Shown here: piece by piece, positions 5,725 to 29,125 of the stretch
How the letters are laid out: every line of letters starts with the position of its first letter
Numbering within the stretch: the stretch's first letter is position 1
The notes under the pieces: model-generated
What the model saw: the letters and a program-made list of their open reading frames with translations, nothing else
What the model was told of the DNA's origin: nothing
Database searches by the model: none
Made by a program: the position numbers and the translations under genes
IMG/VR virus record: IMGVR_UViG_3300037189_003677
Span: 1 to 29,125 of that record
Direction: 5' to 3' (one strand)
Source of the DNA: a virus
DNA length: 29,125 nucleotides

Positions 5725-6378
5725 TTACCAGTCAATGTTGCTGGATGTTGCTGAAGTTGTTTCGAAACCAAAGTAGAAGTTCTCCTGGTCCTCGTACTTA
5801 ACTTCACGAACGACTTTCTCAAGGTCAAAGGTTTCCAGTTCGCCCCACTTGTATGGTTCGGTGTCTGGCTTGGTTGGAAGCAAGGTGTAGTTGGTTTCAG
5901 TTCCCTGACCATTACGCTTAATTTTCCACTCAAGGTTTGAGATTGAGCCAGTTTCGATTGCGTACTCACGCAAGTTACCGAATGCTGACTGCTTTGAGAT
6001 ACCCTGTGACCAAACAGCCACATAAGGTGCTTCGGTTCCGTCGTCGATGATTACGTTACCGTACCAACGTAGACGTGAACGCCATCCACCCTTTGGCTCC
6101 TTGCGAGCCATCTCACAACCGTAGCAACGACCTTCTGAATCGATGGTACATGCTGCCTTACGCTTGTAGTCCTTTGGGTTGGTGTGTTCAGCAATAACCA
6201 CGGATAGTCCACGGTCCTCGCTGAAGTTTGCTGATTCGCTGTCAAGTTCCTCAACGAAACGAATCTTTGCAGCCTGTCCGTCAGCCAACTTGACCCAACG
6301 AACCTTCTGTCCTGTGTTTTCGAATTTTGGCTTATCCATTAGTGCACTGATATCTTTTAGCCCTTTAATTACGCTCAT
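5725..6378 (-). CDS. Single-stranded DNA-binding protein, T4 gp32-like
   Basis: This 217-residue protein matches the layout of gp32-type SSBs. A basic N-terminal arm is followed by a core with a zinc-site pattern His65-x11-Cys77-x7-Cys85-x2-Cys88, close to the spacing in T4 gp32. An aromatic-rich OB-fold stretch (RLRWYGNVIIDDG, then APYVAVW) and a strand region (LEWKIKRNGQGTETNY) follow. The C-terminus is moderately acidic and would contact replication or recombination partners. It should coat single-stranded DNA for the helicase, polymerase and UvsX-like recombinase encoded around it. The start has an AGGAGA site and its own promoter at 6412-6441 inside the primase gene. A hairpin follows its stop, so it may be transcribed partly as a single-gene unit, as suits a protein needed in bulk. 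Confidence 0.85.
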   Translation of the reverse strand: MSVIKGLKDISALMDKPKFENTGQKVRWVKLADGQAAKIRFVEELDSESANFSEDRGLSVVIAEHTNPKDYKRKAACTIDSEGRCYGCEMARKEPKGGWRSRLRWYGNVIIDDGTEAPYVAVWSQGISKQSAFGNLREYAIETGSISNLEWKIKRNGQGTETNYTLLPTKPDTEPYKWGELETFDLEKVVREVKYEDQENFYFGFETTSATSSNIDW

Positions 6379-11842: not shown

Positions 11843-13463
11843 CTGACATTCCTAAAGTAATTTTAAATTCAATTAGGCTTTTAGTTCCAGAATCTTTAAT
11901 GATTGGGCTACCTTGTTGAACTACAGTATACCCAACTAAACCATACAATGGATTAACATTAGATTTATTTTCAAACTTGAGTGAGTCAAGGAGAATAGAA
12001 TAATCGCTAGTCGCTGTTCCACTATAGTTTTGTGCTGTTTCTACGCTTGCATACAACCTTACAGAACGAACGTCTGTCCACTTGAAACCAGATGTTACTG
12101 ATGAAAATAGTGTTGAAATATTTGAAACTGTTCCAGCAGTAATTGCAGCAGTTGCAGAAATAGAAACGCTTGTTGAACTGATTACCGATACTACTGTAAC
12201 TGTTCCTGTTCCAAAACTACCAGAATTTGTAGTTGCTGTAATTTTAGAACCTGCTACAAGACCTTCTGTAGAGGTCATTCCAGTAATAGTAGCAGTATAT
12301 GGACCAGCACCAGATACCGTGCCAATTGTTCCGACTGTTGAAATAACTGTTGGGTCACCCAACTTTAATGAGGAAACGTGATATCTAGTATTTGTTCCAC
12401 TAGTCAAGGTTGTAGCATCTGAAATTCTAAAGTGATATTTAGCACTATCATTTCCATTAGCACTAATAAACTGAAACATAATATTTGCACTCTTGGGCGT
12501 GGCTGTTGGTGTAGTCAATTTATTAATAATTGAAAATGCTAACCTTAACTCATCGCTAGATGAGTTTTTACTTAGGTCCACTCCAAAATTAGACAAAGAA
12601 ATATAGTCACCAGTGGCAGTAAGTGCTGCTGTAAACTCTGACAGGTTTCCTGCAACAATTGTTGTATCATCAAGATATCTGGCTTTTTCATTTCTTATTG
12701 GTCTAGTATCTTGGTCAAATAAACTATTATTGGCGTTGGTTTGAAACGCCTTATCAGTTTTGATGATGTCTCCATTAGTATTGGCAATGACAGAATAGTA
12801 TGGAATATCTGAATATGATAAGGTAGTTCCATTAACATATTGCCAAACTTCATTTTGAGTAAAATCAGATAGTATACGACTGTCAGAGCCTGTTACGAAT
12901 GTATTAGTTCCTGTCGGGTATAAACCAAATTCAGTAATTAAATATCTTTTTTCTGTTGGTATTTCTGCGGTAAAAGCAACTTTTTTAACCATTGCATTAA
13001 TTTTACCCAAACCAAATACTGTATCAAGGTCTACGACTGGCAATGATTGTGTATTATTTAGTACAATATAACCGAATGTTGGGTCAAGGTCTACTACTGT
13101 ATAGTATCCATTAAAATTAGTATTTGGGTCTCCTCCACCGTTAACATATTCTGAAGCATAGGAAATTTCTATACTCTGACCCACATAATATACATTTTCT
13201 GTTACATATAAAAACATTAGGTTTGGTGTACCGCCATCGACGACCAATCTAGTTGGATATGACACTATTGGTTCAACAATTTGACTTCTTGAAATAATTG
13301 GGAATCTGCCAACTTCAAATTGCAACTCTTGTCTAGAAAGGTCAAAATTTGAATTGGCAAAGTTTGGGTCTGCACCAATGCCAATGGCAACGTGAGAGGC
13401 AAAAGAACTGGTTTGTCCAGTTAAAAATTTAGCAATTATGTCTCTACCAGTTAATGTAATCAT
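11832..13463 (-). CDS. Putative minor tail protein with interrupted jelly-roll-like domain, 543 aa
   Basis: The N-terminus (MITLTGRDIIAKFLTGQTSS, then FASHVAIGIGA) matches a pattern I know from minor tail or fibre proteins of actinophages and likely anchors the protein to the tail. The middle contains strands with aromatic and Asp-rich turns. In the C-terminal half a jelly-roll-like domain (KYHFRISDATTL then GFKWTDVRSVRLY) is split by the recurring beta module (12108-12360). The end (SLIEFKITLGMSDGL) is a single strand. TGGTATAAT at 13476 lies 12 nt before the ATG with no good ribosome-binding site, so it may be expressed with a very short leader. The gene overlaps the next one by 11 nt. Confidence 0.7.
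   Translation of the reverse strand: MITLTGRDIIAKFLTGQTSSFASHVAIGIGADPNFANSNFDLSRQELQFEVGRFPIISRSQIVEPIVSYPTRLVVDGGTPNLMFLYVTENVYYVGQSIEISYASEYVNGGGDPNTNFNGYYTVVDLDPTFGYIVLNNTQSLPVVDLDTVFGLGKINAMVKKVAFTAEIPTEKRYLITEFGLYPTGTNTFVTGSDSRILSDFTQNEVWQYVNGTTLSYSDIPYYSVIANTNGDIIKTDKAFQTNANNSLFDQDTRPIRNEKARYLDDTTIVAGNLSEFTAALTATGDYISLSNFGVDLSKNSSSDELRLAFSIINKLTTPTATPKSANIMFQFISANGNDSAKYHFRISDATTLTSGTNTRYHVSSLKLGDPTVISTVGTIGTVSGAGPYTATITGMTSTEGLVAGSKITATTNSGSFGTGTVTVVSVISSTSVSISATAAITAGTVSNISTLFSSVTSGFKWTDVRSVRLYASVETAQNYSGTATSDYSILLDSLKFENKSNVNPLYGLVGYTVVQQGSPIIKDSGTKSLIEFKITLGMSDGL
12108..12360 (-). repeat. Recurring beta-rich tail module, copy 2
   Basis: The pattern 'GlVAGSKIta..nsGsFGtGtVtVvSV...sVsIS...aaitaGtV' matches the shared module. 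The flanks belong to one domain (GDP before and FKWTDVRSVRLY after), so it looks inserted. Boundaries are approximate. Confidence 0.5.
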
Positions 13464-13976: not shown

Positions 13977-16900
13977 TTACACTACCTCACTTAAATATAA
14001 TGTCATTTCTGGACCGTCTCCAGAACGTTGATAATCAATATGGTATACCACAAATCTTGAATTTGGCAATTGCTGTACGTTATCTGCAACATAATCTATT
14101 GTAACAATATCTCCAAGTTGAATCATTGGATTTGCAAAAACTTTCATGCCCACAGACTTTTTGGGGACCATTACTTTAGCAACCATCCAATCCATTAATT
14201 TTGTTGCCATATCCTCATTTTGTAAATAAGTGCCACTAATTGAAAAGTCGTGTTTACCATATGTGTTTCGACTATTTTGAATATCTATAAATTTGTTATT
14301 CAAAGAACTATAGTTTGCATAATCATTTAGATTGCTTGTCTTCAAGAAATACTCATCGACCGATAGGTCGTGTGAGGATTGTTGGGTGAATGTGATACCC
14401 TGGATTCTAAGATAGTTTCCACTTGTTTCATCAAGGCTTAATGCAAAATCTGTAATATTGAAAATTAAAAATTCTGCTCCATATGGGTTAGACCTAAAAC
14501 CAGAAACTAAATAACCTTGTCTATCATTAAACGTTGGAGAAATTTTAGAATATAGGGCAGGATATGCTTTATCATATCTAATATTGAAGTATGCACATTC
14601 TCGCATAATTGTTCCAAATTCTTCGTAATACACCTTGTGTTTGTTTTGACCATTAGCACTAATACCGCTTAGGAATAGGTCAATTACTGTTGGGTTTACT
14701 AAGTATTTTCTATATGCGTCGCCATCAAAACTTTGTTCTTTTACCCCCAGAGCCTTTGTCATTGGAGAGTTAGATACTTCTAGTTGCGACTTTCTAGTAT
14801 CTTCAATACTATATACATGTTCAAAGATGCATCTTCCACCACCCCTTACAAAGAGTGCCATATTTTTAGTTTTGTTATCAACCAATGGAATAGCATCTGT
14901 ATCTGTTACTGAACCAACCAATACATTGTTAATGTATAAAAAGAATCTGCGTTGCCACTTATTTCCAACCTTGTTTAACTCTTCTGTTTTAACACATAAA
15001 TCATAGATTGTAGAATTTGTTTCACCAACAATTTTCCCCATTCCTGTAAACAAACCATCATCAACTAAGACTGGGGTAGAGCCAAACCAAAGAGTGTACG
15101 GAACTGCACTATTGTTTGTTGAGTCATACATCACTTTGTAGAAATAAACATTTGGTATGGACTGTGCAGATTCGGAAGTGTTACCCTGGTCTGAAATTGT
15201 GCTACTAGTTAAAGCAACCAATTCAAAATAATATCCAACGTTATCGTTACTAGAAGTATTGTTTAGATTAATTGCAATACCTCCGCCAGTACCACTTACA
15301 ATATATGAATTTTGTGATGTGGTAATAGTGTCAATTGCGTCTGCTCCAAGCGGTAATTGTTTTGCTTGTGTTGAATCATTAGTTGCATTTTGTTTTCCAA
15401 GAATTCTCATTCTAGTTCCAAAAGTATTAGCAGATGGTGTAATAGAGGAGTAGTCTTTGTAAACATATGACACATTATCGTTTGAATTTCCTGTTTTAGA
15501 TTTAACCCCATTAATGATTAATGCTGATGCTTGGATGCTTCCATTGGGAGTTGATTTGTCTAAAGACTTAGAACTACTAGACTCTGTTAGTGTTGCTGTA
15601 TTAAACATATCTTTGACTGTGGTTTCAACTACTGGTTTTTCAGTTAGGACTGGGGTAGCCCCACTAATAGTAAGATTGTGCAACACTCTGTTAGTGACTG
15701 TAACAGTTCCTGCAGTCCCTGTAAGATTTTTTGTTATTGTAAAACTCTTGCCATCTGTGGCTACAGTATCTACAAGTGTTCCAGATGGAACGCTTGAACC
15801 TGTGACTATCCAACCTTTTTGTACACTACCTGTTGTGCTTACTGAGTTTAAGGTTACTGTCTTTTGTCCTGAAGCACCTGTGCATCCAGTAAATGTATAA
15901 ATAACTTGGTCATATTGATGACTATCTTTAAACATCCATTTTGATTCCATTTTAAATGCCACAGCCTTTGTGCTGTCTAGCCATTCATTATTTGCATCAA
16001 GGATTGTGTGTTTGACTGGCTTAAGACCGCCAGTTGCAATGTCATATATTCCAGTACCAAATTGCATGCGACCATGTTTTGCAACAGCACCTTGCTTAAC
16101 AGAACCATCCAGGTTATAATCTGGCTCTGCATAAATTTTTACTCGTCCTGTTGGAAATAATTTGCCATTAAATGGAAGTTTAGCAAAATACTTTTGATAA
16201 TCATTTACATCTTTTACCCAAACATTGTGTGCAACAGTGGTGGCATCAAAGGTAACCGTTCCTGTGCTACTATGAAGTGAAGATACAGTAATTGTATTTT
16301 TTGATGTGTCTACTGCAGTAACAACTGGATTAGAGCCAAAGATACCAGTTCCCCCTGTTTTTGTGATAGTTTGACCAACTGTTACGTTGTAAACATTTCC
16401 TGATGTAAGGGTTATGGTATTGGTATTTGCAGTAATGGATGCTTGCATTCCTACAAGTTTGCTACTTTGAATTGTATGCTCTACCCCATCATATTTAATA
16501 ATTTCTCCATTTGCATATAGGTAGCCTTTATAACGTGTTAACCAATAAATGGACTGACCAAAATCCATAATGTTGTTTTGAATTACTCCATTTGAATCAA
16601 CTATTGGTAACGAATCTGTAAGTTCTGAATTTAATGCTAAAGCACTTAATACATAACTAGACTGATTGCCAACCTCATCATTTGTTGGTCTTAATGCTTC
16701 TGTGCCAGAAACTTCCCAAAGCAATACAGGCTTATATTTGTACGACTGTGCATTGTTTAGCAATGATGCTTCTTTTAAAGTTCCATAAGATTTTTGAATA
16801 TACTTATTTGAATAAGTAATCTTGCCACCATTGAATACCTGATTATCTTCTGAGTCAATTGAAACAATGCTGGACAAGATACTTTGTGTTGGCATATTGC

Positions 16901-19106
16901 TCACAATTCCACTTTGAGCAAAGTCTTTTGTCCCATAAAGTTTTATATCTGTTTTTCTTTCAGTGGCAGTTGGCATGATGTAATTTCTTGACATTGTTAC
17001 TAAATTATTATCTTCATCAAAGAACATGGATGTTTGAGTAGATTGAGCCAAATCATTAAGAACAGTGGCAACATTTGTATCTGGTGCAATATAAAAATAT
17101 GGGATTACATCATCTGTCTCATTATCATTGCGATAAAATTTATAGTTAGAAAAGCCAATAGAGTCTAGCATTGTTGCAATTGCTTTGCTTAATTTTACAT
17201 TTCGCATTAGTAGAGATGGTGCAATTTGTGATTCAAAGTAAAACAATAAGTCTCTTAGTTCAAGTGTAGCCATTCTATCGGCATTACTAATCTTAGGAAA
17301 TCCATCGACATAGAATGTTTTGATTGGTACAAAATAAGAAAGAACATTAGTGTGGTCTGTGTCGTCTATTACTTGCTCATAAAATTTAAATTGCAAATTT
17401 TTTGAAGTAATGTCGGAAACTAAACTTCCAGTAATTTTGCCATTAGATAATGTCAAATCGTTATATTCGTTAAAAGATTGGTCATAGTCAAAGATTGAAA
17501 TAGAACCAGTTGATGCAAGCAATTGACCCACAGGGATTCCACTATTTCCAATATCGGATGCAACTTTTGTAACGGAATATGAGGTTGTTTTATCCGATAA
17601 GTCAGCAACTAGTCTTGGGGACATTTCAATTAAGTCAAACATTGCACCCTGTGCACTCATTGTACTAACAACAAGTCTAATACCCTTAATATACTTAAAC
17701 TCTCTATAATTAGCATCATAAACGGTGGTTGGTGTGCCATAAAATTCTGGAGAAGTTAAGGTAGTTACATTTGAAGCATTTTCTCTTAATCCTTCTTCGT
17801 TCAAATACCATCCATATATTGGGTTAAACTTTGCAGTTGTCCAATCCGAACCATTCCAAACATATATTGTTCCTTGTGGATTTACACCACTATCTGTGTC
17901 TCCTGGAATTAAGTATGCGTCACCAACATTAGCATCTATTGGCAATGCATATCTTGATGCGTATTCTCCCAATAGTCTTTTAAATGTAGCACTTGGATTA
18001 GTAATACCATACGCAAGTTCTACATATCCATCTGAACCAATTACACGTTTACCAGTGCTTCTAGTCGATGATGCATCAAATGCTTTTGCTGTTTGCCAAA
18101 CATTGCTTGAGTCTAGGTATTGAATGGTCCATGTTTCTGGAGTTTCTTGATTGACCAATGCTCCTGTGTTGGTTGGGTCTTCATAAAATGGGTCATTAAA
18201 GTTTGTATTGTTTGATGTTTTATATGCTGGATTATTAAAATCACTTGCATTAGTTTGCATCTTAACAACAATTCTATTTGCAGGAACTGGGTTATTATAT
18301 ACAACGAATGGTGCTGCATCTTCAATATAGTATTCTCCTGTTGCTTTAAAAGCCTTTGCAATGCCACGCTCTACTGGATTAAAGTCATTAACACTAAATG
18401 TTATTGCCCCTGCTACTGCATGGTTAACCGATAGTGTCATTTGTGTAGCAGAATCAATACTTATGATAATTGCGTTGGTTCCAAATGCACCAGTACCACT
18501 GGTTTTTACAGGTGCTTGACCAACCACAAAAGAAGAAGTCGATGCTACAGATACTACGTTAGTTCCTGTTGCCAGGGTTGCTGTAAAACCAGTCAGCGTT
18601 GTGGTGTATTTGTCTGCCTCTACTCTATATGAGTTCCAATATTTAAATTTATCATCTTTTGATGCTAAGTAATATCTTGGTTGAAGAAACATGTTTTCGT
18701 TTGGAGTATTGATATACTTGCCTTTAAAAAATCTTAATTTATTAATACCAGAACGAGGTCTAAATCTAGATACACAATCTTTAAGTGAAAACAACAGTTC
18801 TTCGGTTTGATTTTTTGAAATAAACGCAGTTGGGTTAGAAGTTAAACTATTTAAGCCTGTATTATTAACAATTTGAGAAACAGTAGCACCTGTATAAGCA
18901 TTTAGTGTATCTAAAATATCAAAGGTGGTTGCAGGAACGCCATAGTTTGTTTCTGTTGGGCTACCAATAGATGGTCTATATCTATAGTTTCCAAGTGTTT
19001 TAATGTTATCTGAAAAATTCATATTCCATTCTGCAATAACAATTGATTGCAAATTTACACTTGAAGAAGTTTCTAAGTAATTTTGTAATGAGGTATTGCT
19101 ATACAT
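13977..19106 (-). CDS. Large tail hub-like (Tal-type) minor tail protein with LamG-like domain
   Basis: This 1709-residue protein probably forms the tail-tip hub below the distal tail protein. The frame opens to 19139, but ATG 19106 forms a TAATG junction with the upstream stop and has a GAGG site, so I start there. The N-terminal part (QSIVIAEWNMNFSDNIKTLG) and a mid-region (ATLELRDLLFYFESQIAPSL, then ATVLNDLAQSTQTSMFFDED) look like hub-ring domains. A LamG/concanavalin-like beta sandwich lies at about residues 1228-1432 (FFLYINNVLVGSVTD then MALFVRGGGRCIFEHVYS), a likely glycan or surface contact. The C-terminus (MIQLGDIVTIDY, RFVVYHIDYQRSGDGPEMTL) has the closing hub strand pattern. Three copies of the recurring beta module are inserted. 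No peptidase or lysozyme motif was found. Confidence 0.8.
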   Translation of the reverse strand: MYSNTSLQNYLETSSSVNLQSIVIAEWNMNFSDNIKTLGNYRYRPSIGSPTETNYGVPATTFDILDTLNAYTGATVSQIVNNTGLNSLTSNPTAFISKNQTEELLFSLKDCVSRFRPRSGINKLRFFKGKYINTPNENMFLQPRYYLASKDDKFKYWNSYRVEADKYTTTLTGFTATLATGTNVVSVASTSSFVVGQAPVKTSGTGAFGTNAIIISIDSATQMTLSVNHAVAGAITFSVNDFNPVERGIAKAFKATGEYYIEDAAPFVVYNNPVPANRIVVKMQTNASDFNNPAYKTSNNTNFNDPFYEDPTNTGALVNQETPETWTIQYLDSSNVWQTAKAFDASSTRSTGKRVIGSDGYVELAYGITNPSATFKRLLGEYASRYALPIDANVGDAYLIPGDTDSGVNPQGTIYVWNGSDWTTAKFNPIYGWYLNEEGLRENASNVTTLTSPEFYGTPTTVYDANYREFKYIKGIRLVVSTMSAQGAMFDLIEMSPRLVADLSDKTTSYSVTKVASDIGNSGIPVGQLLASTGSISIFDYDQSFNEYNDLTLSNGKITGSLVSDITSKNLQFKFYEQVIDDTDHTNVLSYFVPIKTFYVDGFPKISNADRMATLELRDLLFYFESQIAPSLLMRNVKLSKAIATMLDSIGFSNYKFYRNDNETDDVIPYFYIAPDTNVATVLNDLAQSTQTSMFFDEDNNLVTMSRNYIMPTATERKTDIKLYGTKDFAQSGIVSNMPTQSILSSIVSIDSEDNQVFNGGKITYSNKYIQKSYGTLKEASLLNNAQSYKYKPVLLWEVSGTEALRPTNDEVGNQSSYVLSALALNSELTDSLPIVDSNGVIQNNIMDFGQSIYWLTRYKGYLYANGEIIKYDGVEHTIQSSKLVGMQASITANTNTITLTSGNVYNVTVGQTITKTGGTGIFGSNPVVTAVDTSKNTITVSSLHSSTGTVTFDATTVAHNVWVKDVNDYQKYFAKLPFNGKLFPTGRVKIYAEPDYNLDGSVKQGAVAKHGRMQFGTGIYDIATGGLKPVKHTILDANNEWLDSTKAVAFKMESKWMFKDSHQYDQVIYTFTGCTGASGQKTVTLNSVSTTGSVQKGWIVTGSSVPSGTLVDTVATDGKSFTITKNLTGTAGTVTVTNRVLHNLTISGATPVLTEKPVVETTVKDMFNTATLTESSSSKSLDKSTPNGSIQASALIINGVKSKTGNSNDNVSYVYKDYSSITPSANTFGTRMRILGKQNATNDSTQAKQLPLGADAIDTITTSQNSYIVSGTGGGIAINLNNTSSNDNVGYYFELVALTSSTISDQGNTSESAQSIPNVYFYKVMYDSTNNSAVPYTLWFGSTPVLVDDGLFTGMGKIVGETNSTIYDLCVKTEELNKVGNKWQRRFFLYINNVLVGSVTDTDAIPLVDNKTKNMALFVRGGGRCIFEHVYSIEDTRKSQLEVSNSPMTKALGVKEQSFDGDAYRKYLVNPTVIDLFLSGISANGQNKHKVYYEEFGTIMRECAYFNIRYDKAYPALYSKISPTFNDRQGYLVSGFRSNPYGAEFLIFNITDFALSLDETSGNYLRIQGITFTQQSSHDLSVDEYFLKTSNLNDYANYSSLNNKFIDIQNSRNTYGKHDFSISGTYLQNEDMATKLMDWMVAKVMVPKKSVGMKVFANPMIQLGDIVTIDYVADNVQQLPNSRFVVYHIDYQRSGDGPEMTLYLSEVV
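15688..15906 (-). repeat. Recurring beta-rich tail module, copy 3 (divergent)
   Basis: The pattern 'vTLnsVs..gsVqkGWiVtGssVpsGTlVdtVa.dgksfTIt..ltGtaGtVTVtn' fits the module, but lacks the G-x-F-G turn, having a VPSG turn instead. It is the most divergent copy. Boundaries are approximate. Confidence 0.4.
16237..16452 (-). repeat. Recurring beta-rich tail module, copy 4
   Basis: The pattern 'nTiTLtsgn.ynVtVGQtItktGGTGiFGsnPvVtaVDtskNTITVSs..sstGtVTFda' is a strong match. It interrupts the hub-like protein between an ordinary-looking KYDGVEHTIQSSKLV and VWVKDVNDYQKYF. Boundaries are approximate. Confidence 0.55.
18385..18612 (-). repeat. Recurring beta-rich tail module, copy 5
   Basis: The pattern 'tnVVsVasts.FvVGQapvktsGTGaFGtnaIIisIDsatqmTLSvnhavaGaItFsv' closely matches copy 4. 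It sits early in the hub-like protein before GIAKAFKATGEYYIEDAAPF. Boundaries are approximate. Confidence 0.55.
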
Positions 19107-20269
19107 TATACCTCTTCCAATCCCACAGAAATATTCCAAAATTCCATATTAGAACTGCCACGCTTATTGACATTATAATCAAAATTATTAATGAACATTT
19201 CAATGACTTCATTGTATTGCGACAATTGTGAGTATTCATTAATAGAAAATTTATTATGGTTATCATATGCCAAGAAAACCCAGAATGAACCTGTGTGTGT
19301 CTTGTACCAATCAAGAAGTTCATTTCCTCCTGCACCGCCGTCAACCGTATATTGTGTTCCAGATATAGTTTGTCCAGAAATGTTATCGACTCTAGATTCT
19401 AACGATGTAACCCCAGATGAGTTAAAATTTGGACTATTCGAAAATGAGCGAGATGGTAAATTATCCCAAGATGTAGTTAGCGATAGTTTGTCAGCAATGT
19501 GGTATGAACGCATGCGACCATTAATCATTCTTTGTCTTTTCTCAATACGGTTTGGCTTAAACTGTAGGTCTTTTCTGTTGTGGTCTGACAAAATAATAAA
19601 GTTTTCTCCTTGAATTGATTGACCAACTTCATACCCTTGTGGCACATAGACATACTCTGGCTCAGTATATGGATTAAGAGTTGTTCCCTCTTGAAGCATA
19701 GCACCGTCAAAATACATGTATTGACCAATTGTTGGGGTTGATGCAGAATATACATATACCCTAGCATTTGTTGTTCCTGTAGGTGCTAATCCAGTTATAG
19801 ATAGTCTTGTCCATGATTCTGAATTAATTGTGGTTGCACTTGAAGTAAAAGTTTGTAGTGCTGCAGAAGCAGACCTAAATTCTAAGTTGGCTGTAAATTG
19901 TTGCCCAACTGTTCCATCTTTAACATAGATAGAAAAAGTATAATTTGTTGCAGGGCTAACGGTCAGAATTAATGATGAGTGAATGATTCCAATTTTACCT
20001 GCTGCTGCAGTTGCAGTTACCTTAGCAACGGATGTTCCTACATATGGTTTTGTTTCTGTAGAGTTAGATGCTACTGTGCCTACGCTACCGCTGGCTACTG
20101 GGTATGTCCAGTTTGTTGTCCCTGATTCAAAACTAGATGTACTTAAATTGGCAATAATGTTAGTTTGCGTTGCTGGATTAATGATAGCAAGTGGGGGTGA
20201 ATCTGACCATAGCATAGCCTGTGGTCTTCTATACTTTTTACGTCCAGCCAGATATGTTGTTGTGCTCAC
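19106..20269 (-). CDS. Distal-tail-like minor tail protein with inserted carbohydrate-binding-like domain
   Basis: This 387-residue protein lies directly downstream of the tape measure gene, the normal place of the distal tail protein. Residues 1-36 and about 204-387 look like one tail protein, with QGENFIILSDHNRKDLQF and a final NMEFWNISVGLEEV. Between them, residues 38-203 form a separate beta sandwich of the CBM_4_9 type: FESGTTNWTY at its start, LTVSPATNYTFSIYVKDG in the middle, and YMYFDGAMLQEGT at its end. Such domains usually bind polysaccharide, so it may help the tail reach host cell-wall glycans. The start is a GTG at 20269 overlapping the tape measure stop by one base, with an AGGAG site. 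Which tail-ring role it fills is inferred from position. Confidence 0.78.
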   Translation of the reverse strand: MSTTTYLAGRKKYRRPQAMLWSDSPPLAIINPATQTNIIANLSTSSFESGTTNWTYPVASGSVGTVASNSTETKPYVGTSVAKVTATAAAGKIGIIHSSLILTVSPATNYTFSIYVKDGTVGQQFTANLEFRSASAALQTFTSSATTINSESWTRLSITGLAPTGTTNARVYVYSASTPTIGQYMYFDGAMLQEGTTLNPYTEPEYVYVPQGYEVGQSIQGENFIILSDHNRKDLQFKPNRIEKRQRMINGRMRSYHIADKLSLTTSWDNLPSRSFSNSPNFNSSGVTSLESRVDNISGQTISGTQYTVDGGAGGNELLDWYKTHTGSFWVFLAYDNHNKFSINEYSQLSQYNEVIEMFINNFDYNVNKRGSSNMEFWNISVGLEEV

Positions 20270-23200
20270 TAACCAATGCTCCTAATTCGTTGTGAATCTA
20301 TTCTCTTGATTTCCTGCAATACCTTATCGGCAATATCTGAAGAATCTGATGAATTAGCGTTCACTGTAATACTATAATTATACACTGAATCTCCGCCTGA
20401 CATTGCATCTTTTCCAGCATAATTCATTCTAGCCAATTCTTGTGCTCCAATTGACTCAACTGCTGATTTCTTCATAACGAATTCTCCTGGAGTTAGCATT
20501 GCAGGGATTGTGTCAGTCCCCTGTTTTGTAAAGCCACCAAATTCAAAGTATTTAGGGACAACCGAACCACCATTAGCATATCTAGAAATCATTCCACCTT
20601 CGGCTTTTTTCTTAGTCTTATCGTCTTGTGTTGAGTTGAATCCTCCAACAAACGCTCCCCACCAGTCAGCAATTGATTTTCCAGCATTTTTAATTGCATC
20701 CATTGCTTGTTGAGGCAAACTAACTACCCAGTCAGCAATCTTTTTTGTGGTTGTTTCAAACCAGTGACCAATTGCTGGTATACCATTTTCCCAAAAATCT
20801 TTAGCCCATTTAGTCATTTTATCTGGAAGTCCTGTAATCCACTTCCATACTTTAAGTGCTTGGTCTCCCAGCCACTTGTTAATACCCTGAATTCCATTCC
20901 AAAGATTTCCAACCATTTTGCCAATGTTTTCTCCAGAGAATGTCGTTGCAAACCAATTACCAATCTTGTTAGCCTGTTCAGTAAGCCATGAGCCAATATC
21001 TTTAATTCCATTCCACATGTTGCCAACAAATTCACCAATCTTTTTAGGGTTGGTAATATCGGAGAACCAGGTTGATAATGCTTTCCATTGTTGTGCCAGC
21101 CAATCGCCAATGTTTGGGAAAAGGTTAGACCAGAAATTTGGGTCCTTCTTTTTCTTAGCATCTGCTGCAGCATTGTCAGCACCAAGCATTGGCAATGCAT
21201 CTGTTGGTGTTGAAGTTTCACTTGTTGTACTTGAACTTCCATCACCAGTACCATATGTTGGGTTATATGGTGTAGGCAATACTGAAATCTTTTTATTTGC
21301 CTCTAGTAGTCGTTGAGCAGCATCTGCAGCGATTACTGCATTTTTTCCAATGCCAACCTGACGGTCAAGTTCTAGAAGTTTATTAGCAGCAATCTTTGCT
21401 GTGTTTTCTTCAATTTTTGCTTCAAGACTTTGTCTAGTTTCAGTGTGTCCTAAAATAGTTACGGTTATATCTGCCAACTCTGCTTTTCTAGCATTTTCTA
21501 GACTGTTTTTAGCATCATCAAGTGCAGCCTTTTGACTATCTTGTTTTGCTTTTAGTGCTACACGAGCAGCAGCAGCAATGTCACCCTTTGAAAGTGCATC
21601 AGCAAGGTCCATAGTGTTTTGCTGTAGTTGATTGTTCTTTTCTTGAGCCTTGCCAATTTCATCAAGAGCCTTTACACGAGCATCATACTTTTCATTAATT
21701 TTCTTTTCTTTACCAGCAATAACATCAAGACCAGAGTTGTAAAGTTCGTTGTCTTTTCCTGCTCTTTCTGATTCGCTGGAAGTTACATAAGCCATTCCAA
21801 TCTTTGCATCTTCAACTTGCTTTGCAATACGAATAGCATCTTTACCAGCCTTAGTAAGTTTACCTGTAGCACGGTCAATAATCTTATCAATATCTTTTTG
21901 GTCTCCACCCAATACCGCCTGAATAAAGTTTGCATCTGCACCATAGGCGTGAAGTCTTTGTGCAAGACCAGCACCAGAGTTAAGAGCATCCTTACTCCAT
22001 CTTCTCATAGCCTTCATTGAATCAGCAAAGCCAATGGTGAGTTTTTGTTGCCATCCAGAAGCATCTCTAATTGAATTTACATATTGGTCAAGGAACGATG
22101 CTGCAGGTGGACCTCCGCTTCCACCTTTTTTATCTCCTCCAGGAACCTTGCTTGAGTCAACGTTTGCTGCAGTAACAGAACGAGCAACTGCTTTTTGATA
22201 ATCCTCTGCAGTTTTCCCTGGGTTTTCTTTCATATATGCTTGTGATGCTTGCTTAAATTCTTTAGTTCCCTTAAGAGCAGTGGTAGTTTTAATGCTAGTG
22301 ATATATGTAATTTGTTGTTCTTTATCTAAGTGACTAAAATATGAAGTATCTGCTTTAAGCAAAGCCATTTCATCTTTACCAATATACTTAGCCTTAGCAA
22401 TTACGTCAACATTTAATTTTCCTTTGTATCGTCCAATAGCATCCATATCTTGCTTAATCTTTAATGCATCACCTTTATTCTTTTGGAAGTAGGTCATCAA
22501 GAAGTTGAGGTTGATATTGCTTTGGTTTTTTGAAACAAGTGTCATAGCATCGATAAGTTCTTGAGATTTTCCTGAATCTGTTTGTGCACTAAAGGTAAGC
22601 ATAAATTTCTTTTGGTCTTCAATATTACTAAACATTTGTGCAACTTGAAGTGCCTGGTCTACTTGAATACCCTTTTGAGAAATCATCTTGGTAAGTTCAT
22701 CCATACCTGCTTGACTTCCACCATAAAGATTTTTAATTGTGTCAATTTGACTTAGACCAATTTGACCAGAAGAAACTTCTTGCTTAAGCAATGTTTGCTG
22801 ACCAAAGTTGCCCTGCATTTGGTCAATATTCTGTAGAGCCATCTTAGCCTGAATGTCTTGACCAGTACCTTTAAACTTTTCGGTAACAGCATTGTTTGCT
22901 GTTTCCTTAATTGCATCTTGCTGTCCCCACCAACCAACACCAAGGGCTGAAAGAGGTCCGCTATCGGCAGCATTAGACGCATTTACTATTGCATCTACAG
23001 TTTTAGTATTTTCATCAAGAAGTTTTTGCTTATCCTTTTCTTTTTGTATAGCCAAATCTGCTGCTAAAATAGAGTTGCCCTGAGCCTTGGCAATTTCAAT
23101 ACGTTTTTGATATTCAAGGTCAAGTCCATCTAGCATTTGTTTTTGCACTTCTAGGGCATTACCTGCTTGAGCAGCAAAGGCTGCTGCTGATGTGTTTGCT

Positions 23201-26200
23201 TGTTCAATACGACCCCACATCGTTGTCCACAATTTTGCAGTAACAGCAATTGAGTTACCCTCAACTAGTGATTTAAAGATATTTCCCTTGCCAGAAGCAG
23301 CGGTCATTGGAATAACAAATTGAGTCTGAACCATTTGCCCAGCAGTCTTTAGACCCTCTTCTGCATTCATTAGGCTGTGTTGTTGCATGTTATCAATTGA
23401 CTTTGCAAGTTGAACTTCTGAATCTTTAGCAACTTGCAGTCTAAGTTTTAGAGGTTCTTTGGCAAGATTTTCACCGTTTGGACCATAAATATTAAGTAGT
23501 GTTGATGCTGCTCCAATACCCAAAGTTTGGTTACCCATTTGAGCACCAACGTTTCCAGCAATGCTTCTTGCTTGGTCTGCTTTAAGCACACCAGATGAAA
23601 CTGCTGCACTAAGTTGTTCTGTAAGTGCCCTCTGTGCTTCTGCATTACCACCCTTTGATTGTGCTTCGGAAATTACCTTAACCAAGGCTTTTCCATCTTC
23701 AGTTTGCATATAACTAGAGCCAAATGTTTGTTTGCCTGGTTTAATTTGATATGGACTAAATGCTTCTGCACGTTTTCTATCCATAATTTCTGATGCACTT
23801 ACACTCTTTGCAAAATTTTCAAATTTCATCATTGCTTTATTACCAGTACCAATTGATTCTACAAAGTCTACAGTTTTCTTTCTTGCTTCTGTAAGTGCAG
23901 TATTGAGTTGAATACCAATAGTAACAAGTGCCATCAAAGCACCAACAACCATACCAGCAGGACCAGGAATCATGGACATTGCTGATGCAGCAGCACCAAT
24001 AGGACCTACAGCAGCCTTACCAATATCACCAATAGGACCTGGCATGGTAGCAGCAATACCTGCAGCGACTGCAGCACCACGAACATATTTGCCAACTTTG
24101 GCTGTGCCAGCACCCTGTGTAAATAGTTTTGTCTTTGCACTTTCAAGTCCAGACATAAACTTGTTTGGTGTCTTAGTGGTTCCAGTTGTATCACCTTCAC
24201 CACCAGTTTCTCCACCACCACTTTCTTTACCACTCAAATCTGGAATTTCAGTACCCTTTGATTTGTCCTCCATAAGCACTACAGGAAGTGGGTTTGTTTC
24301 GCTATATTTTTCTAGAGGGAATCCAGAAACATCTCCAGTTCCACTGCTATATCCTGGCACAATTGTTCCGTTGGCAAATCCTGGAAGACTTCCCTTAATC
24401 ATTTGTGAAATAAGTCCACGGTGTTGTTGAGCCTTGTCAGCAGGGATTACAGCCTCTCCTGGAGATAGCATAGCAGGAACAACATCTCCAGCACCCTTTG
24501 GACCAGGTACTGAGAATACTCCATTAGCAAGTTTTAGTGGGTCATATGTAGGAATATTTAGAAGACTAATAGCACCACGAGTTTCTGGCATGTCGTCATA
24601 AAACTCTTCAATATCGTAATACTTCATGAATGCTGATGTTTTGTCATACTTCATCTGCCACGGTTTACGGTAGTCTTTGTCTCTTCTAGATACTAACTTG
24701 ATACCTTTCATGTCAATGCCAAGTTTTGTCAAAGTTTCAATAGTATGTGGGTCATATGAATCAGGGCGAGCAGTCATAAGGATAATCTTGTTACCCCTAG
24801 CCTGAGCAGCCTTTAGTGCTGCAATACCTGCAGGAATTGGCTGAGGGTTTTTAGCAACTTCTTTGTGCCATTTAGTTCTTTGTTCTACAGGCAGTTTTTC
24901 GTTTGCTGCTTGGTGTGCTGGCATAAAAGATGATAAATCAAGTAGGGTATCGTCAATGTCAAATACAGAAGCCTTTGGCTTAACTTTAGAAACTCCGCCA
25001 ACATTTTCAGTTCCTAATGCAAATCCAGGGATACCAAATTTCTTAGCAGCGGTTGGGTCAATGTATCCGTTGCCCATAAGTGTTGATAGACTACCAGCAA
25101 CAATACCAAATAGACCTTCATTAGAAAATTCTTTTGCTGTTGAGTCATATGCTGGCTGACCCTTAGTGCTAAATGCTCCTGGTCTATCACTATTGGTCTT
25201 AAATTTAATTGGTTTAAACTTAGTTCCTTCTGATTGTGGTCCAAAGTTACCATTCTTATCTGGAAGCAAGTCTTGTGGTGCTGTTGGCATATTTCCAGAA
25301 TAGTTACCTGCTGCAGCCCAAGCCCTGTACGCTTCTTGTGCTCTTCTTCTAATTTCTTTTTCTTTTGGAGTTGCTGATGCACCATCGCTACCAAATGAAT
25401 CTAATGCCCATCTACCAAGGCGAGCACCGAATGGTGTGTCAAGACTGCTGGCAGTTGCATTAAATCCAATTTCATTGCGTCTTAGCATACCTAGAATTAG
25501 GTCGTGGTTACTTTCGCCAACTCCTCTTTCAAACTTTGAACGAACAGTTCCAACTTGATTTGACCTAGCCCAAATAAGTTCTGCAGCACCACCAAGTGGC
25601 GAGTTTTCTCCAGATTTGTTACTTAAAAAGTCTTCAACGTTTTTAGCAAAAATTTTATCTTTAATCAATGGTAGTGCTGATAGTCTTTGACCAATCATAT
25701 TTTCTAATTGTTGTGATTGTGATAGGTCTTTAACTCCTGCCATTCTTGCAGTTTTTGCTAATTTTCCAAAGAATGAATTATAGATTTCAGCAAATAGACT
25801 TCCTGGCATACCACCATTTGCTTCTTTAATTTGCTGGTTTAGTTTACCTGGCATAGTCATTGTCAGGTTACTGAGAACTTCAAAGTTTGTGAAATCTTCT
25901 GGTGTTGAGTTTTTATATACTCTCTTTAGTTCTGCTTGAATCTTTGGGTCTTTAGGGTCCAACCCACCAAAGGCGTGGGTTTCCTGAATACCACCAACAA
26001 GGAGTTGTCCAAGTTGTGCTGTGCTTAGTGTTGCTAATTTAGCATCTAGTGCTGCATCTCCAGTTGTTCCGCCATTAAATAGTTTTGGTTTAACTGCAGA
26101 GTGCATAACTTGATACTTACCCCAGTCAACACCCAAACCAGCCTCAAGTCTTTGTTGCATTTCCGCATACGCAGCCTTTTCTTCTGGTGACATTGGACCA

Positions 26201-29125
26201 AATCCAGCAATAGTAGACTGAAGTTTTGGAATTACTCTTTGAATTTCTGCTTTCATTGCTGCATCATATTGTGCAGGAGTCATCTTTGATACTTGTTCAG
26301 ATGTTGCTTCAGCAAAGAATCTCTTAGCACCGCCCTTTACACCAAGAAGATTAATAATGGCTTGTTCTTCCATTGAATTAATCTTTGCACCAAGTTCACG
26401 TTTTCCAGATGCTCTTTGGAATACACCAGCAGTTCCAACATCGGCAAGAACATTACCACCAAGATTGCCAATGCCAAGGTCTTTATCTCCACGAAGAAGT
26501 GATGCTACAAGTTGTGTGAAATAATCTTTATTGCTAAATGTTTTTGGAACATTTGCAAGTCTTTCGTCTAGTGGGGATTCAAGAACAATAAACCTACGCT
26601 TATGGTCTGGGTCTGTTGGGTCCATCATTACACGAATCTGTTGCTGAGGTGACACAAGACCATGAGCACCACGAGCAATTTCTGTTCCACGAACTTCTGC
26701 CAAAGCAGATGCTAGATTCATTTGTGGCTTAACAAATACCTTTGTACCATCTGGCTTTTGATAAATGCCACCTACCTCAAAGGCAGGGAATGAGTGACCA
26801 CTAGTTGGAGAAATTTGTGTACCAAAATCAGTTGGTGGCACATTTCCATATGGACCAGCCATAACTTCATCGCTAATTTCTTTTAGTTGAAGACCTGTGC
26901 GACCCAAACCTTCAGTTTGTTTTTGGGTTAGTGGACCATAGATGCTTTGACGCATTCCTGCACCAGCAGTACCAGTCTCAAAACCTGGAAGGTTGCCAGC
27001 AATCATTCCTCTAATTACTGGTGCATACTTTTTGGCTGAGGCAGCAGGAATAACTGCTTCTCCAGGTGATAGTAGTGCTGGAACAATGTCACCTGCACCA
27101 TTTGGACCAGGAACCATAGAAACACCAGTAGCATATTTTTTAGGAGATGGAGTAGGTGTGTTTGCAGGTGTTGCATTTGGATTACCAACAGGAACGTTTG
27201 GAACGCCAGCAAAAGCCTGTTGAGCCTGAATAGCATTTCTATATGCTGTTGTCAAATCATTAATTGCTGTTGTTTCAGATGTAAATGTTTGACGAAGTTT
27301 TGCGTGAGCCTGGTCAAGAGATGATGCAATAGCAGCACCCTTTAGTTGCTCTGTATTCATATACTGGGTTTGCTCACCAAGAATATTAGTTCTATTGCCT
27401 GTTCTATTTAGGAAACTCTTTAGGTTAGTAAATAGTTTCATAATGTTAGCAATACCGTTTGAAATCAGACCGAATGACATTAGCAATAGCGGACCAATAC
27501 CTGCTACTGCAGTTACTAAAATAGTAATAAACTTTTTAGAGCCTTCGCTAAGGTTATTAAACCCATCAAGGATTTTAGATACAAAGTTGATGATTGGAGT
27601 AACAGCCTTAAGGAAGGCTTCTCCTACTGGTGCTAACTTAGCCTTCATTTCCTCAATTGATTTTTGGAACTTGTACATAGGAGAATCTGAAATCTTTTTT
27701 AGTTCTCGTTCTGATAGAATGGCTAGTTCTTCTGCAGTTGAATTTGCTAGACCTGCAACCTTATTTGCCTGACTACCTTGGTCAATTACGTTTTTAAACA
27801 ATGTTGAAATACGAGAGAATTGGAACTTTCCAAACATCATTTCGATAGCACGAGAACGATTTAGTGGGTCAAGCGTATCAAAAGCCTTAGCCATATCAAT
27901 AACGGTTTGTTTAACATTTCCTTTATCTTGATTAACAATTGATTTAACGTTGATTCCAAAACCAGCAAGAAAGTCAGATGCTTGCTTAGTTGGATTAATC
28001 ATAGATGCTAAACCAGACTTAAGTGCGTTAGCACCTTCGGATGCATTAATGCCACCTTCTTTCATTGCTGTCATAAAGAAGGCTAGGTCTTCTACGCTAC
28101 CACCAAGTTGCTTAACAACTGGGGCAGCCTTTGGAATAGCAGTAGTCAAATCTTCAATGGATAGTACTGTTTGGTTTTCTACTGCGTTTAAGAAGTTAAC
28201 TTTTCCAGATAGTTTGTCTGCTGCTGTTCCGAATGCATTTGTCAAACTGATTGTGGTTTGCAATGCTTTATTTTGGTCAACACCGCCGAGAACTGAAAGT
28301 TTGGCTGCTTCATTTACCTGTGCAAGTAAGTCTGAGCCAGTTTTACCCATTGCAGCAGCATTTGCTGCCATGTCCATAGTATCTGCAACAGCAACTCCAT
28401 ATTGGGTAAATTGTGTAGCCAATCCCTGAACCGCTTTAGCCATCTTATTGGCTTCTTCTGCGGTAGTTTGCATATCTCCATATACACGCTTAAACTTTAC
28501 AGAAGCCTGTTCAATTTGCATATATGCTTTAGCAGCAGCAGAACCAGCCATCGTTAGTGGTACTGTAAAACCAACCATAAGTTGGCGACCTGCCCACTGA
28601 GTGTTTTTACCAAAGTTTAGAAGTTGGGTAGAACCCTGTTTCATTAACTGGTTAAATAGTGCTTGTCTTTGTGCAGCAATTTGAGTTTTAGTACCAAGGT
28701 CATTTAGGTCAAGGGCTAGTGGTCTTACAGAAATTGCTTTCATCGCACCAGAAGCATCACGTCCTAGTTTGATGTATTGCGTTTGGATTGTTTTTACTCT
28801 GTCAAGTGCTACCTGATTAATTGTTTCAAATTCAGATTTAAAAAGTTTACCAAAAGTTTTTGATGCTCCACCTGCATAGCGGAAGTACTCACCCATTGTG
28901 AGTTTGTTCTTTTCAAGTGCTGTTGTAAAGCGTTCTGCACTTGTTTGAATTGTTTGAATGTTTGCCTGAAACTTACCAGTTGCATTGATAGAGTTTACAA
29001 GGTTTTGCTGCATTGCTCGTGCAGCAGCAGCGTTGTCAGCACCTGCTTTTCGCATGGCTTGCTGAAAGGCTGATATTTGCTGTTGCAAAAGTTTTAGTTG
29101 CGCCAGAGCATCTGACGTATCTATA
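20269..29125 (-). CDS. Tape measure protein with internal enzyme-like domains, N-terminus cut by window edge
   Basis: The frame stays open to the right edge, so 2951 residues are visible and the true start lies outside. Counting from the first in-frame TTG (29088), a coiled N-terminus leads into a TP901-type tape measure core (about 155-470, KEGGINASEGANALKSGLAS). A hydrophobic stretch follows (about 518-551). Then come a 57-aa repeat (651-707), a kinase-like segment (about 767-1000), helical segments, a HAD-like domain (1370-1516), a second 57-aa repeat (1519-1575), a Gly-rich linker, a second hydrophobic stretch (about 1665-1733), long helices, a Trp-rich repeat region (about 2650-2817) and a C-terminal GTDTIPAMLTPGEFV motif. 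The protein sets tail length and may cross the host membrane. The enzyme-like middle is unusual. It ends one base into the next gene. Confidence 0.95.
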   Translation of the reverse strand, partial: IDTSDALAQLKLLQQQISAFQQAMRKAGADNAAAARAMQQNLVNSINATGKFQANIQTIQTSAERFTTALEKNKLTMGEYFRYAGGASKTFGKLFKSEFETINQVALDRVKTIQTQYIKLGRDASGAMKAISVRPLALDLNDLGTKTQIAAQRQALFNQLMKQGSTQLLNFGKNTQWAGRQLMVGFTVPLTMAGSAAAKAYMQIEQASVKFKRVYGDMQTTAEEANKMAKAVQGLATQFTQYGVAVADTMDMAANAAAMGKTGSDLLAQVNEAAKLSVLGGVDQNKALQTTISLTNAFGTAADKLSGKVNFLNAVENQTVLSIEDLTTAIPKAAPVVKQLGGSVEDLAFFMTAMKEGGINASEGANALKSGLASMINPTKQASDFLAGFGINVKSIVNQDKGNVKQTVIDMAKAFDTLDPLNRSRAIEMMFGKFQFSRISTLFKNVIDQGSQANKVAGLANSTAEELAILSERELKKISDSPMYKFQKSIEEMKAKLAPVGEAFLKAVTPIINFVSKILDGFNNLSEGSKKFITILVTAVAGIGPLLLMSFGLISNGIANIMKLFTNLKSFLNRTGNRTNILGEQTQYMNTEQLKGAAIASSLDQAHAKLRQTFTSETTAINDLTTAYRNAIQAQQAFAGVPNVPVGNPNATPANTPTPSPKKYATGVSMVPGPNGAGDIVPALLSPGEAVIPAASAKKYAPVIRGMIAGNLPGFETGTAGAGMRQSIYGPLTQKQTEGLGRTGLQLKEISDEVMAGPYGNVPPTDFGTQISPTSGHSFPAFEVGGIYQKPDGTKVFVKPQMNLASALAEVRGTEIARGAHGLVSPQQQIRVMMDPTDPDHKRRFIVLESPLDERLANVPKTFSNKDYFTQLVASLLRGDKDLGIGNLGGNVLADVGTAGVFQRASGKRELGAKINSMEEQAIINLLGVKGGAKRFFAEATSEQVSKMTPAQYDAAMKAEIQRVIPKLQSTIAGFGPMSPEEKAAYAEMQQRLEAGLGVDWGKYQVMHSAVKPKLFNGGTTGDAALDAKLATLSTAQLGQLLVGGIQETHAFGGLDPKDPKIQAELKRVYKNSTPEDFTNFEVLSNLTMTMPGKLNQQIKEANGGMPGSLFAEIYNSFFGKLAKTARMAGVKDLSQSQQLENMIGQRLSALPLIKDKIFAKNVEDFLSNKSGENSPLGGAAELIWARSNQVGTVRSKFERGVGESNHDLILGMLRRNEIGFNATASSLDTPFGARLGRWALDSFGSDGASATPKEKEIRRRAQEAYRAWAAAGNYSGNMPTAPQDLLPDKNGNFGPQSEGTKFKPIKFKTNSDRPGAFSTKGQPAYDSTAKEFSNEGLFGIVAGSLSTLMGNGYIDPTAAKKFGIPGFALGTENVGGVSKVKPKASVFDIDDTLLDLSSFMPAHQAANEKLPVEQRTKWHKEVAKNPQPIPAGIAALKAAQARGNKIILMTARPDSYDPHTIETLTKLGIDMKGIKLVSRRDKDYRKPWQMKYDKTSAFMKYYDIEEFYDDMPETRGAISLLNIPTYDPLKLANGVFSVPGPKGAGDVVPAMLSPGEAVIPADKAQQHRGLISQMIKGSLPGFANGTIVPGYSSGTGDVSGFPLEKYSETNPLPVVLMEDKSKGTEIPDLSGKESGGGETGGEGDTTGTTKTPNKFMSGLESAKTKLFTQGAGTAKVGKYVRGAAVAAGIAATMPGPIGDIGKAAVGPIGAAASAMSMIPGPAGMVVGALMALVTIGIQLNTALTEARKKTVDFVESIGTGNKAMMKFENFAKSVSASEIMDRKRAEAFSPYQIKPGKQTFGSSYMQTEDGKALVKVISEAQSKGGNAEAQRALTEQLSAAVSSGVLKADQARSIAGNVGAQMGNQTLGIGAASTLLNIYGPNGENLAKEPLKLRLQVAKDSEVQLAKSIDNMQQHSLMNAEEGLKTAGQMVQTQFVIPMTAASGKGNIFKSLVEGNSIAVTAKLWTTMWGRIEQANTSAAAFAAQAGNALEVQKQMLDGLDLEYQKRIEIAKAQGNSILAADLAIQKEKDKQKLLDENTKTVDAIVNASNAADSGPLSALGVGWWGQQDAIKETANNAVTEKFKGTGQDIQAKMALQNIDQMQGNFGQQTLLKQEVSSGQIGLSQIDTIKNLYGGSQAGMDELTKMISQKGIQVDQALQVAQMFSNIEDQKKFMLTFSAQTDSGKSQELIDAMTLVSKNQSNINLNFLMTYFQKNKGDALKIKQDMDAIGRYKGKLNVDVIAKAKYIGKDEMALLKADTSYFSHLDKEQQITYITSIKTTTALKGTKEFKQASQAYMKENPGKTAEDYQKAVARSVTAANVDSSKVPGGDKKGGSGGPPAASFLDQYVNSIRDASGWQQKLTIGFADSMKAMRRWSKDALNSGAGLAQRLHAYGADANFIQAVLGGDQKDIDKIIDRATGKLTKAGKDAIRIAKQVEDAKIGMAYVTSSESERAGKDNELYNSGLDVIAGKEKKINEKYDARVKALDEIGKAQEKNNQLQQNTMDLADALSKGDIAAAARVALKAKQDSQKAALDDAKNSLENARKAELADITVTILGHTETRQSLEAKIEENTAKIAANKLLELDRQVGIGKNAVIAADAAQRLLEANKKISVLPTPYNPTYGTGDGSSSTTSETSTPTDALPMLGADNAAADAKKKKDPNFWSNLFPNIGDWLAQQWKALSTWFSDITNPKKIGEFVGNMWNGIKDIGSWLTEQANKIGNWFATTFSGENIGKMVGNLWNGIQGINKWLGDQALKVWKWITGLPDKMTKWAKDFWENGIPAIGHWFETTTKKIADWVVSLPQQAMDAIKNAGKSIADWWGAFVGGFNSTQDDKTKKKAEGGMISRYANGGSVVPKYFEFGGFTKQGTDTIPAMLTPGEFVMKKSAVESIGAQELARMNYAGKDAMSGGDSVYNYSITVNANSSDSSDIADKVLQEIKRIDSQRIRSIG
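20415..20555 (-). repeat. C-terminal tape measure repeat 3 (GTDTIPAMLTPGEFV type)
   Basis: GGFTKQGTDTIPAMLTPGEF near the end of the tape measure protein is the third and most divergent relative of the two 57-aa repeats. It keeps the core 'G.D.iPAmLtPGE.v' and belongs to a motif widely seen in tape measure proteins. Boundaries are approximate. Confidence 0.6.
20640..21140 (-). repeat. Tryptophan-rich repeat region of the tape measure protein
   Basis: About 165 residues carry repeated units of the type 'vGnmWNGIkdIgsWLteQAnKIgnWf'. MWNGIKDIGSWL and LWNGIQGINKWL are the clearest pair; further units (ENGIPAIGHWFE, IADWVVSLPQQA) are degenerate. Regular tryptophan spacing of about 11 residues is known in tape measure proteins and is thought to match the helical repeat of the tail tube. 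Confidence 0.6.
24364..24534 (-). repeat. 57-aa tape measure repeat 2
   Basis: This segment encodes 57 residues running from KLANGVFSVPGPKGAGDVVP to SLPGFANGT. It matches repeat 1 at 36 of 57 positions with no gaps. It directly follows the HAD-like domain. Confidence 0.85.
24541..24981 (-). other. HAD-phosphatase-like domain inside the tape measure protein
   Basis: Residues 1370-1516 carry all four HAD motifs in order: motif I VFDIDDTLLD (Asp1377 and Asp1379), motif II ILMTARPDS (Thr1439), a lysine in MKYDKTSAFM as motif III, and motif IV EEFYDDMPE (acidic pair at 1498-1499). The size and the 'DxDDT...TARP...YDD' style recall the phosphatase half of polynucleotide kinase-phosphatase and other small HAD phosphatases. 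The family removes phosphate through an aspartyl-phosphate intermediate with magnesium. The substrate is unknown. All likely catalytic residues are present, so it need not be a relic. Confidence 0.8.
25009..25032 (-). repeat. Half-repeat (IPGFALGT) between the two enzyme-like segments
   Basis: IPGFALGT matches the last eight residues of the 57-aa repeats (LPGFETGT and LPGFANGT). It lies 27 nt before the HAD-like domain, in the gap between the kinase-like half and the HAD-like half. Confidence 0.6.
26090..26790 (-). other. Kinase-fold-like segment inside the tape measure protein
   Basis: About 230 residues resemble an atypical (HipA/PI3K-like) kinase. Residues 773-788 (GGIYQKPDGTKVFVKP) look like the N-lobe strands with the ATP-binding lysine. 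ALAEVRGTEIARG supplies a helix glutamate. GDKDLGIGNLGGNVLADVG (867-885) looks like a catalytic Asp and Asn followed by a DVG metal-binding turn in place of DFG. A helical C-lobe could follow. No single motif is diagnostic, so this is a hypothesis that a structure prediction could overturn. Confidence 0.45.
26968..27138 (-). repeat. 57-aa tape measure repeat 1
   Basis: This segment encodes 57 residues running from KYATGVSMVPGPNGAGDIVP to NLPGFETGT. It shares VPGP-x-GAGD-x-VPA and LSPGEAVIPA with repeat 2 at identical spacing. It directly precedes the kinase-like half of the inserted region. Confidence 0.85.

Follow-up and report, generated by a model that had tools for sequence, protein, structure and literature searches.

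The window, by which we mean the whole stretch of DNA analyzed, is a virus record of 29,125 bases whose minus strand bears one stop-free frame of 2951 residues (Table 1). To judge from relatives, whose frames begin 11 residues further upstream with MADIES.., about 11 amino acids are missing at its N terminus. The product is a tape measure protein, with matches to Pfam PhageMin_Tail (2e-24, 87 bits versus a cutoff of 33.2), NCBIfam TIGR01760, tape_meas_TP901 (1.1e-32, 113.4 bits, cutoff of 28.8), and PHROG phrog_10030 (1.1e-101). Over the N-terminal 600 residues, it shares about 30% identity with Stanwilliamsviridae tape measure proteins such as those of Streptomyces phages Wofford and Circinus, and the window encodes a RecA-like protein with about 47% identity to its Wofford counterpart. 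Judging from these similarities, an actinobacterial host is likely. The tape measure proteins of Wofford and Circinus, the closest cultured relatives examined, have 2084 to 2102 residues and contain neither the HAD domain nor the kinase-like domain described below. A PhoD search of the window's record returned nothing.

Table 1. Features of the tape measure protein frame in the window and one cassette in a relative (aa, amino acid positions in the frame)
Feature	Position	Strand	Basis or remark
Tape measure protein frame, 2951 aa	20269..29124	-	5' end cut at window edge
PhageMin_Tail / TP901-type tape measure N-terminal domain, aa 236-432	27829..28419	-	Pfam PF10145, 2e-24
Repeat copy 1, aa 664-719 (..VPGPNGAGDIVPALLSPGEAVIPA..), flanks inserted region on N-terminal side	26968..27135	-	
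Kinase-like domain, aa 735-1015: K799, E810, D882-x4-N887, D895-x-G897	26080..26922	-	Alignment, Foldseek
Variable middle domain, aa ~1024-1290, predicted folded	25255..26055	-	Identity to relatives, pLDDT
HAD phosphatase domain, aa 1382-1530, PNKP / class C acid phosphatase-like	24535..24981	-	Pfam, PHROG, structure, alignment
HAD motif I DIDDT; nucleophile Asp1389, acid/base Asp1391	24946..24960	-	Both Asp invariant, 15 sequences
HAD motif II TAR (Thr1451, Arg1453)	24766..24774	-	Alignment
HAD motif III Lys1492, aligned to T4 Pnkp Lys258	24649..24651	-	Invariant
HAD motif IV YDD (Asp1510, Asp1511), aligned to T4 Pnkp Asp277/Asp278	24592..24600	-	Invariant
Repeat copy 2, aa 1533-1588 (..VPGPKGAGDVVPAMLSPGEAVIPA..), flanks HAD cassette on C-terminal side	24361..24528	-	
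Shorter third copy of repeat core near C terminus (KQGTDTIPAMLTPGEFV)	20476..20526	-	
GNAT cassette of relative L016	Frame starting at 1316, between HAD (aa 1035-1191) and repeat at aa 1740		

The original prediction was that a HAD phosphatase domain with intact motifs lies inside this frame, and our results agree with it. No stop interrupts the frame, motifs I to IV of the HAD superfamily phosphatases are all present in the expected order, and the domain matches Pfam Acid_phosphat_B (3.5e-14, 53.3 bits, cutoff of 27) and the PHROG polynucleotide kinase family phrog_415 (8.8e-16), E values that rule out a chance motif match. The residue numbers given originally are about 12 lower than ours because they were counted from an internal TTG. 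Across 15 aligned HAD sequences, motif I reads DIDDT or DVDDT, and both of its aspartates are retained in all 15, as the prediction implied; T1451, R1453, K1492, and D1510-D1511 are likewise invariant. Comparing the window with eight relatives gave dN/dS values of 0.07 to 0.17 for the domain, at dS values above 1. The domain is under purifying selection, and its active site is intact. A decayed HAD is ruled out by the invariant catalytic residues and by dN/dS.

The fold was checked by AlphaFold2 with a 34-sequence alignment, which gave a pLDDT of about 90 across the HAD region, and by Foldseek, which matched the predicted domain to HAD phosphatases with a probability of 1.00. The Rossmann-like HAD core that was expected is present. 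The top solved match is the T4 Pnkp 3'-phosphatase (5uj0; E value of 3.1e-5, target-normalised TM of 0.69 to 0.74), with the match spanning its entire phosphatase domain; class C acid phosphatases follow it within the top ten. A profile search against PDB sequences returned class C acid phosphatases and the e(P4) NADP phosphatase at 1.8e-5 and Pnkp1 at 1.2e-4. The NCBIfam model lipo_e_P4 was hit at 5.4e-8, with a score of 32.4 bits that is below its equivalog cutoff of 216.

The domain shares with T4 Pnkp (PseT), Pfam HAD_PNKP, and phrog_415 the HAD core, DxDxT, the Arg after motif II, the DD of motif IV, and the motif III Lys with equal R-K-x4-K spacing. In the PseT alignment, Asp165, Asp167, Arg213, Lys258, Asp277, and Asp278 are all matched. 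It differs in having DDT rather than DGT in motif I and in being fused into a tape measure protein with no P-loop kinase partner. Arg176 and Asp254, which we take to be residues that matter in T4 Pnkp, also have no counterparts in the alignment: there is no basic residue for Arg176, and Pro takes the place of Asp254. The domain is therefore filed as PNKP-like and not as a PNKP member, and a 3'-phosphate substrate is uncertain. With the class C acid phosphatases (Acid_phosphat_B and e(P4)), the domain shares sequence from motif I to motif II and a similar short insert between them; these enzymes, however, are secreted or lipoproteins and larger, and they align in sequence over only about the first two-thirds of the domain. 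In sum, this HAD is PNKP-like and retains its active site; its substrate is not readable from the sequence. By its resemblance to Pnkp, 3'-phosphate ends of nucleic acid would be the favored substrate, which is the weakest step in the argument. The tape measure protein showed neither a P-loop polynucleotide kinase nor a ligase. A pairing of the phosphatase with such a kinase was rejected; the domain upstream has a protein-kinase-type signature instead.

That upstream domain, about 1.1 kb before the HAD in the same protein, had been missed in the original prediction, as had the bordering repeat; the HAD fold and the intact catalytic residues are the parts of the earlier interpretation that our results support. 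Its signature is invariant in 34 aligned sequences and consists of a strand-3 Lys (in VxVKP), a helix-C Glu 11 residues later, a D-x4-N catalytic loop (in RGDKDLxxxN), and D-x-G (in ADVG). These elements follow the order of the kinase fold in the predicted structure, which has a pLDDT of about 90. When the model of this domain plus the middle domain was submitted to Foldseek, the top 50 matches were protein kinases or kinase-fold proteins, with a best E value of 2e-3 and low TM-scores; Helicobacter pylori CtkA (probability of 0.96) and HipA (0.93) were among them. No match to the domain was found in Pfam, PHROG, or NCBIfam. Our name for it, kinase-like, carries no claim of activity. The middle domain that follows is mostly 10 to 45% identical to its relatives, with pLDDT values mostly of 80 to 95, and a search for its function gave no match.

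We scanned 2.9 million viral contigs (IMG/VR) for the HAD domain and found it intact in 16 other contigs and as one truncated copy; two pairs of contigs appear to be near-copies. In all 16, it lies inside a long tape measure frame and has the kinase-like domain upstream of it. The identical fusion in these contigs and in the truncated copy rules out an assembly chimera or a frameshift. The kinase-like domain is more widespread, occurring in long tape measure frames of 43 contigs, most of them without HAD, and HAD was never found without it in the sampled contigs. Among 50,697 records of cultured phages, no tape measure protein had either domain, and HAD matched only PNK-like proteins at 27 to 28% identity. 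When 84,980 genomes of bacteria and archaea were scanned twice with short conserved peptides, which distant forms could escape, no relative was detected, and plasmids yielded distant HADs only.

The inserted region is bracketed by a repeat with the consensus VPGPxGAGDxVPAxLSPGEAVIPA. In a tree of the kinase-like domain, HAD is limited to one supported clade (100/97), within which at least three changes are needed; one gain and two losses are compatible with this history, HAD having been lost or replaced about twice within the clade. In relatives L021 and L031, the middle domain runs directly into the repeat, with no HAD between them. In L032 and L034, other cassettes unrelated to HAD fill the slot and the kinase-like domain is kept. 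The L032 cassette recurs in L013 at a different position with 85% identity. L016 has no middle domain and adds a GNAT acetyltransferase (Acetyltransf_1, 1.7e-4, above the Pfam curated cutoff). Among complete frames in the HAD clade, lengths vary between 2847 and 4062 residues, and the repeats form the borders. The HAD is an optional cassette in a larger enzyme-bearing region in which, in our sample, the kinase-like domain is always present.

Some further modules were recognized by eye. Two in L008 (aa 1590 to 2300 of the frame starting at 5741) and one in L016 (upstream of aa 1740) look like ADP-ribosyltransferases (ARTs; FGPGTYFAEDP, LGKGMYFSA), and one in L034 (NDDGHTNNIL..NLDLG) resembles a second kinase. 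None of them matched Pfam or PHROG, nor did the L034 module match any PDB sequence, and they are leads only because no library match backs them. In L013, a module of about 190 residues is present in three copies within one tape measure protein (aa 1655 to 2640 of the frame starting at 5507), the copies being spaced by the repeat and by the cassette common to L032.

The reading that we prefer, at a probability of about 55%, is that the tape measure protein is a carrier of exchangeable enzymes, which would be injected with the DNA. In this siphophage lineage, the protein would have gained about 1000 residues and become a vehicle for enzyme modules, namely a kinase-like domain that is nearly constant, a folded domain that varies, and a slot for cassettes that in the window holds a PNKP-type HAD phosphatase. 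At infection, the tape measure protein would exit the tail either before the DNA or together with it, and the modules would refold at or inside the host membrane. The phosphatase, via its Asp nucleophile and Mg2+, would then dephosphorylate a target of host or phage origin, the most plausible being nucleic acid with 3'-phosphate ends, and would be active before any phage gene is expressed. Delivery, timing, and substrate are what we infer in this scheme. In its folded state, a HAD or kinase has about the width of a tail lumen; such domains therefore have to be unfolded or placed at an end. Tape measure proteins exit the tail upon infection, so an enzyme embedded in one could gain access to the host with no gene expressed. 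In lambda, the protein localizes to the inner membrane and acts there while the DNA enters (PMC13190303). The odds seem even to us for a broader version, in which the tape measure protein of this lineage would be a repeat-bordered effector platform whose kinase-like, phosphatase, acetyltransferase, and other cassettes are swapped between phages and injected into the host cytoplasm before expression, much as in polymorphic toxins or polyvalent proteins but with the tail ruler as the vehicle.

Effectors directed against variable host targets fit better than a structural or assembly role because of the cassette exchange, the strong selection on the active sites, and the dispensability of any one cassette. 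An assembly role would mean that the kinase-like domain and the phosphatase form a phosphorylation switch acting on tail or capsid proteins and not on the next host. The apparent kinase and phosphatase in a single protein, and the sampled HADs always accompanied by the kinase-like domain, are in line with such a switch, but we consider it decidedly unlikely: HAD is absent from L021 and L031 and replaced by unrelated cassettes in L032 and L034, all with the kinase-like domain in place, and an essential switch would not shed its phosphatase so readily. It is very improbable that the modules lack a catalytic role, whether as passengers in decay or as folded spacers. Although the linkers and middle regions around them vary freely and some relatives have no HAD, the catalytic residues of HAD are invariant (n = 15) with a dN/dS of about 0.1, and so is the kinase signature (n = 34).

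A different question is what the phosphatase acts on. Like class C acid phosphatases, it might take small molecules such as nucleoside 3'- or 5'-monophosphates, NADP, or a defense signal nucleotide, either within the host cytoplasm or, during penetration, at the cell surface. The class C and e(P4) enzymes being the top matches among PDB sequences, together with the lipo_e_P4 hit, though far under its cutoff, point this way. T4 Pnkp, on the other hand, comes first by structure with its whole phosphatase domain covered, and PNK phosphatases come first in phage databases, so we regard small-molecule substrates as unlikely.

An enzyme-carrying tape measure protein is not without parallels. Lytic domains in these proteins are known, for example, the transglycosylases in tape measure proteins of enterococcal phages (PMC10194240), which agrees with the original remark that enzymes carried there are usually lytic. 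As in our case, the enzyme is embedded within the tape measure protein; unlike our case, it cuts the cell wall for entry, whereas the phosphatase, kinase-like, and acetyltransferase domains would have targets other than the wall, probably intracellular ones. Polyvalent proteins (Iyer et al. 2017, PMC5512222) are large and multidomain, their domains including kinase, ART, and GNAT, and are believed to enter alongside phage or conjugative DNA. They resemble the protein described here in combining several domains in one large chain, with a delivery that here is presumed. The carrier here, however, is a tape measure protein, the word "tape" being absent from that paper, and the polyvalent-protein kinase has no C-terminal subdomain. 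Sle1 of Streptomyces is an actinobacterial injection-system effector with a tape-measure-like part and exchangeable functional domains (PMC13277306). Sle1-type effectors of contractile injection systems share these features with our family but are cellular and have C-terminal modules, in contrast to the internal cassettes of a phage tape measure protein. The present family may be seen as joining these three ideas in one phage tape measure protein. In the openly licensed literature, we found no earlier account of HAD, kinase, or ART domains carried by tape measure proteins.

If our reading is right, the tail ruler would deliver signaling and repair enzymes at DNA entry, before expression and while host defenses act, and the known content of tape measure proteins would extend from wall-cutting to intracellular enzymes. 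It would also offer a natural system, tolerating cassettes that differ by more than 1000 residues between relatives, in which to test the way tail length is counted, and would point to a source of modular delivery vehicles.

Two observations concern other virion proteins. In BFVD, predicted structures of portal proteins and prohead proteases from uncultured phages (A0A6J5S481, A0A6J5NAI8) show partial matches to the kinase-HAD region, a hint that other virion proteins may carry similar domains. Within the window, a motif of about 60 to 75 residues (GxxVGxxxxKxxGxGxFGxxxxxxxID...TVS) is common to three tail proteins, encoded at 10334-11842, 11832-13463, and 13977-19139, with two copies in the 1720-residue protein.
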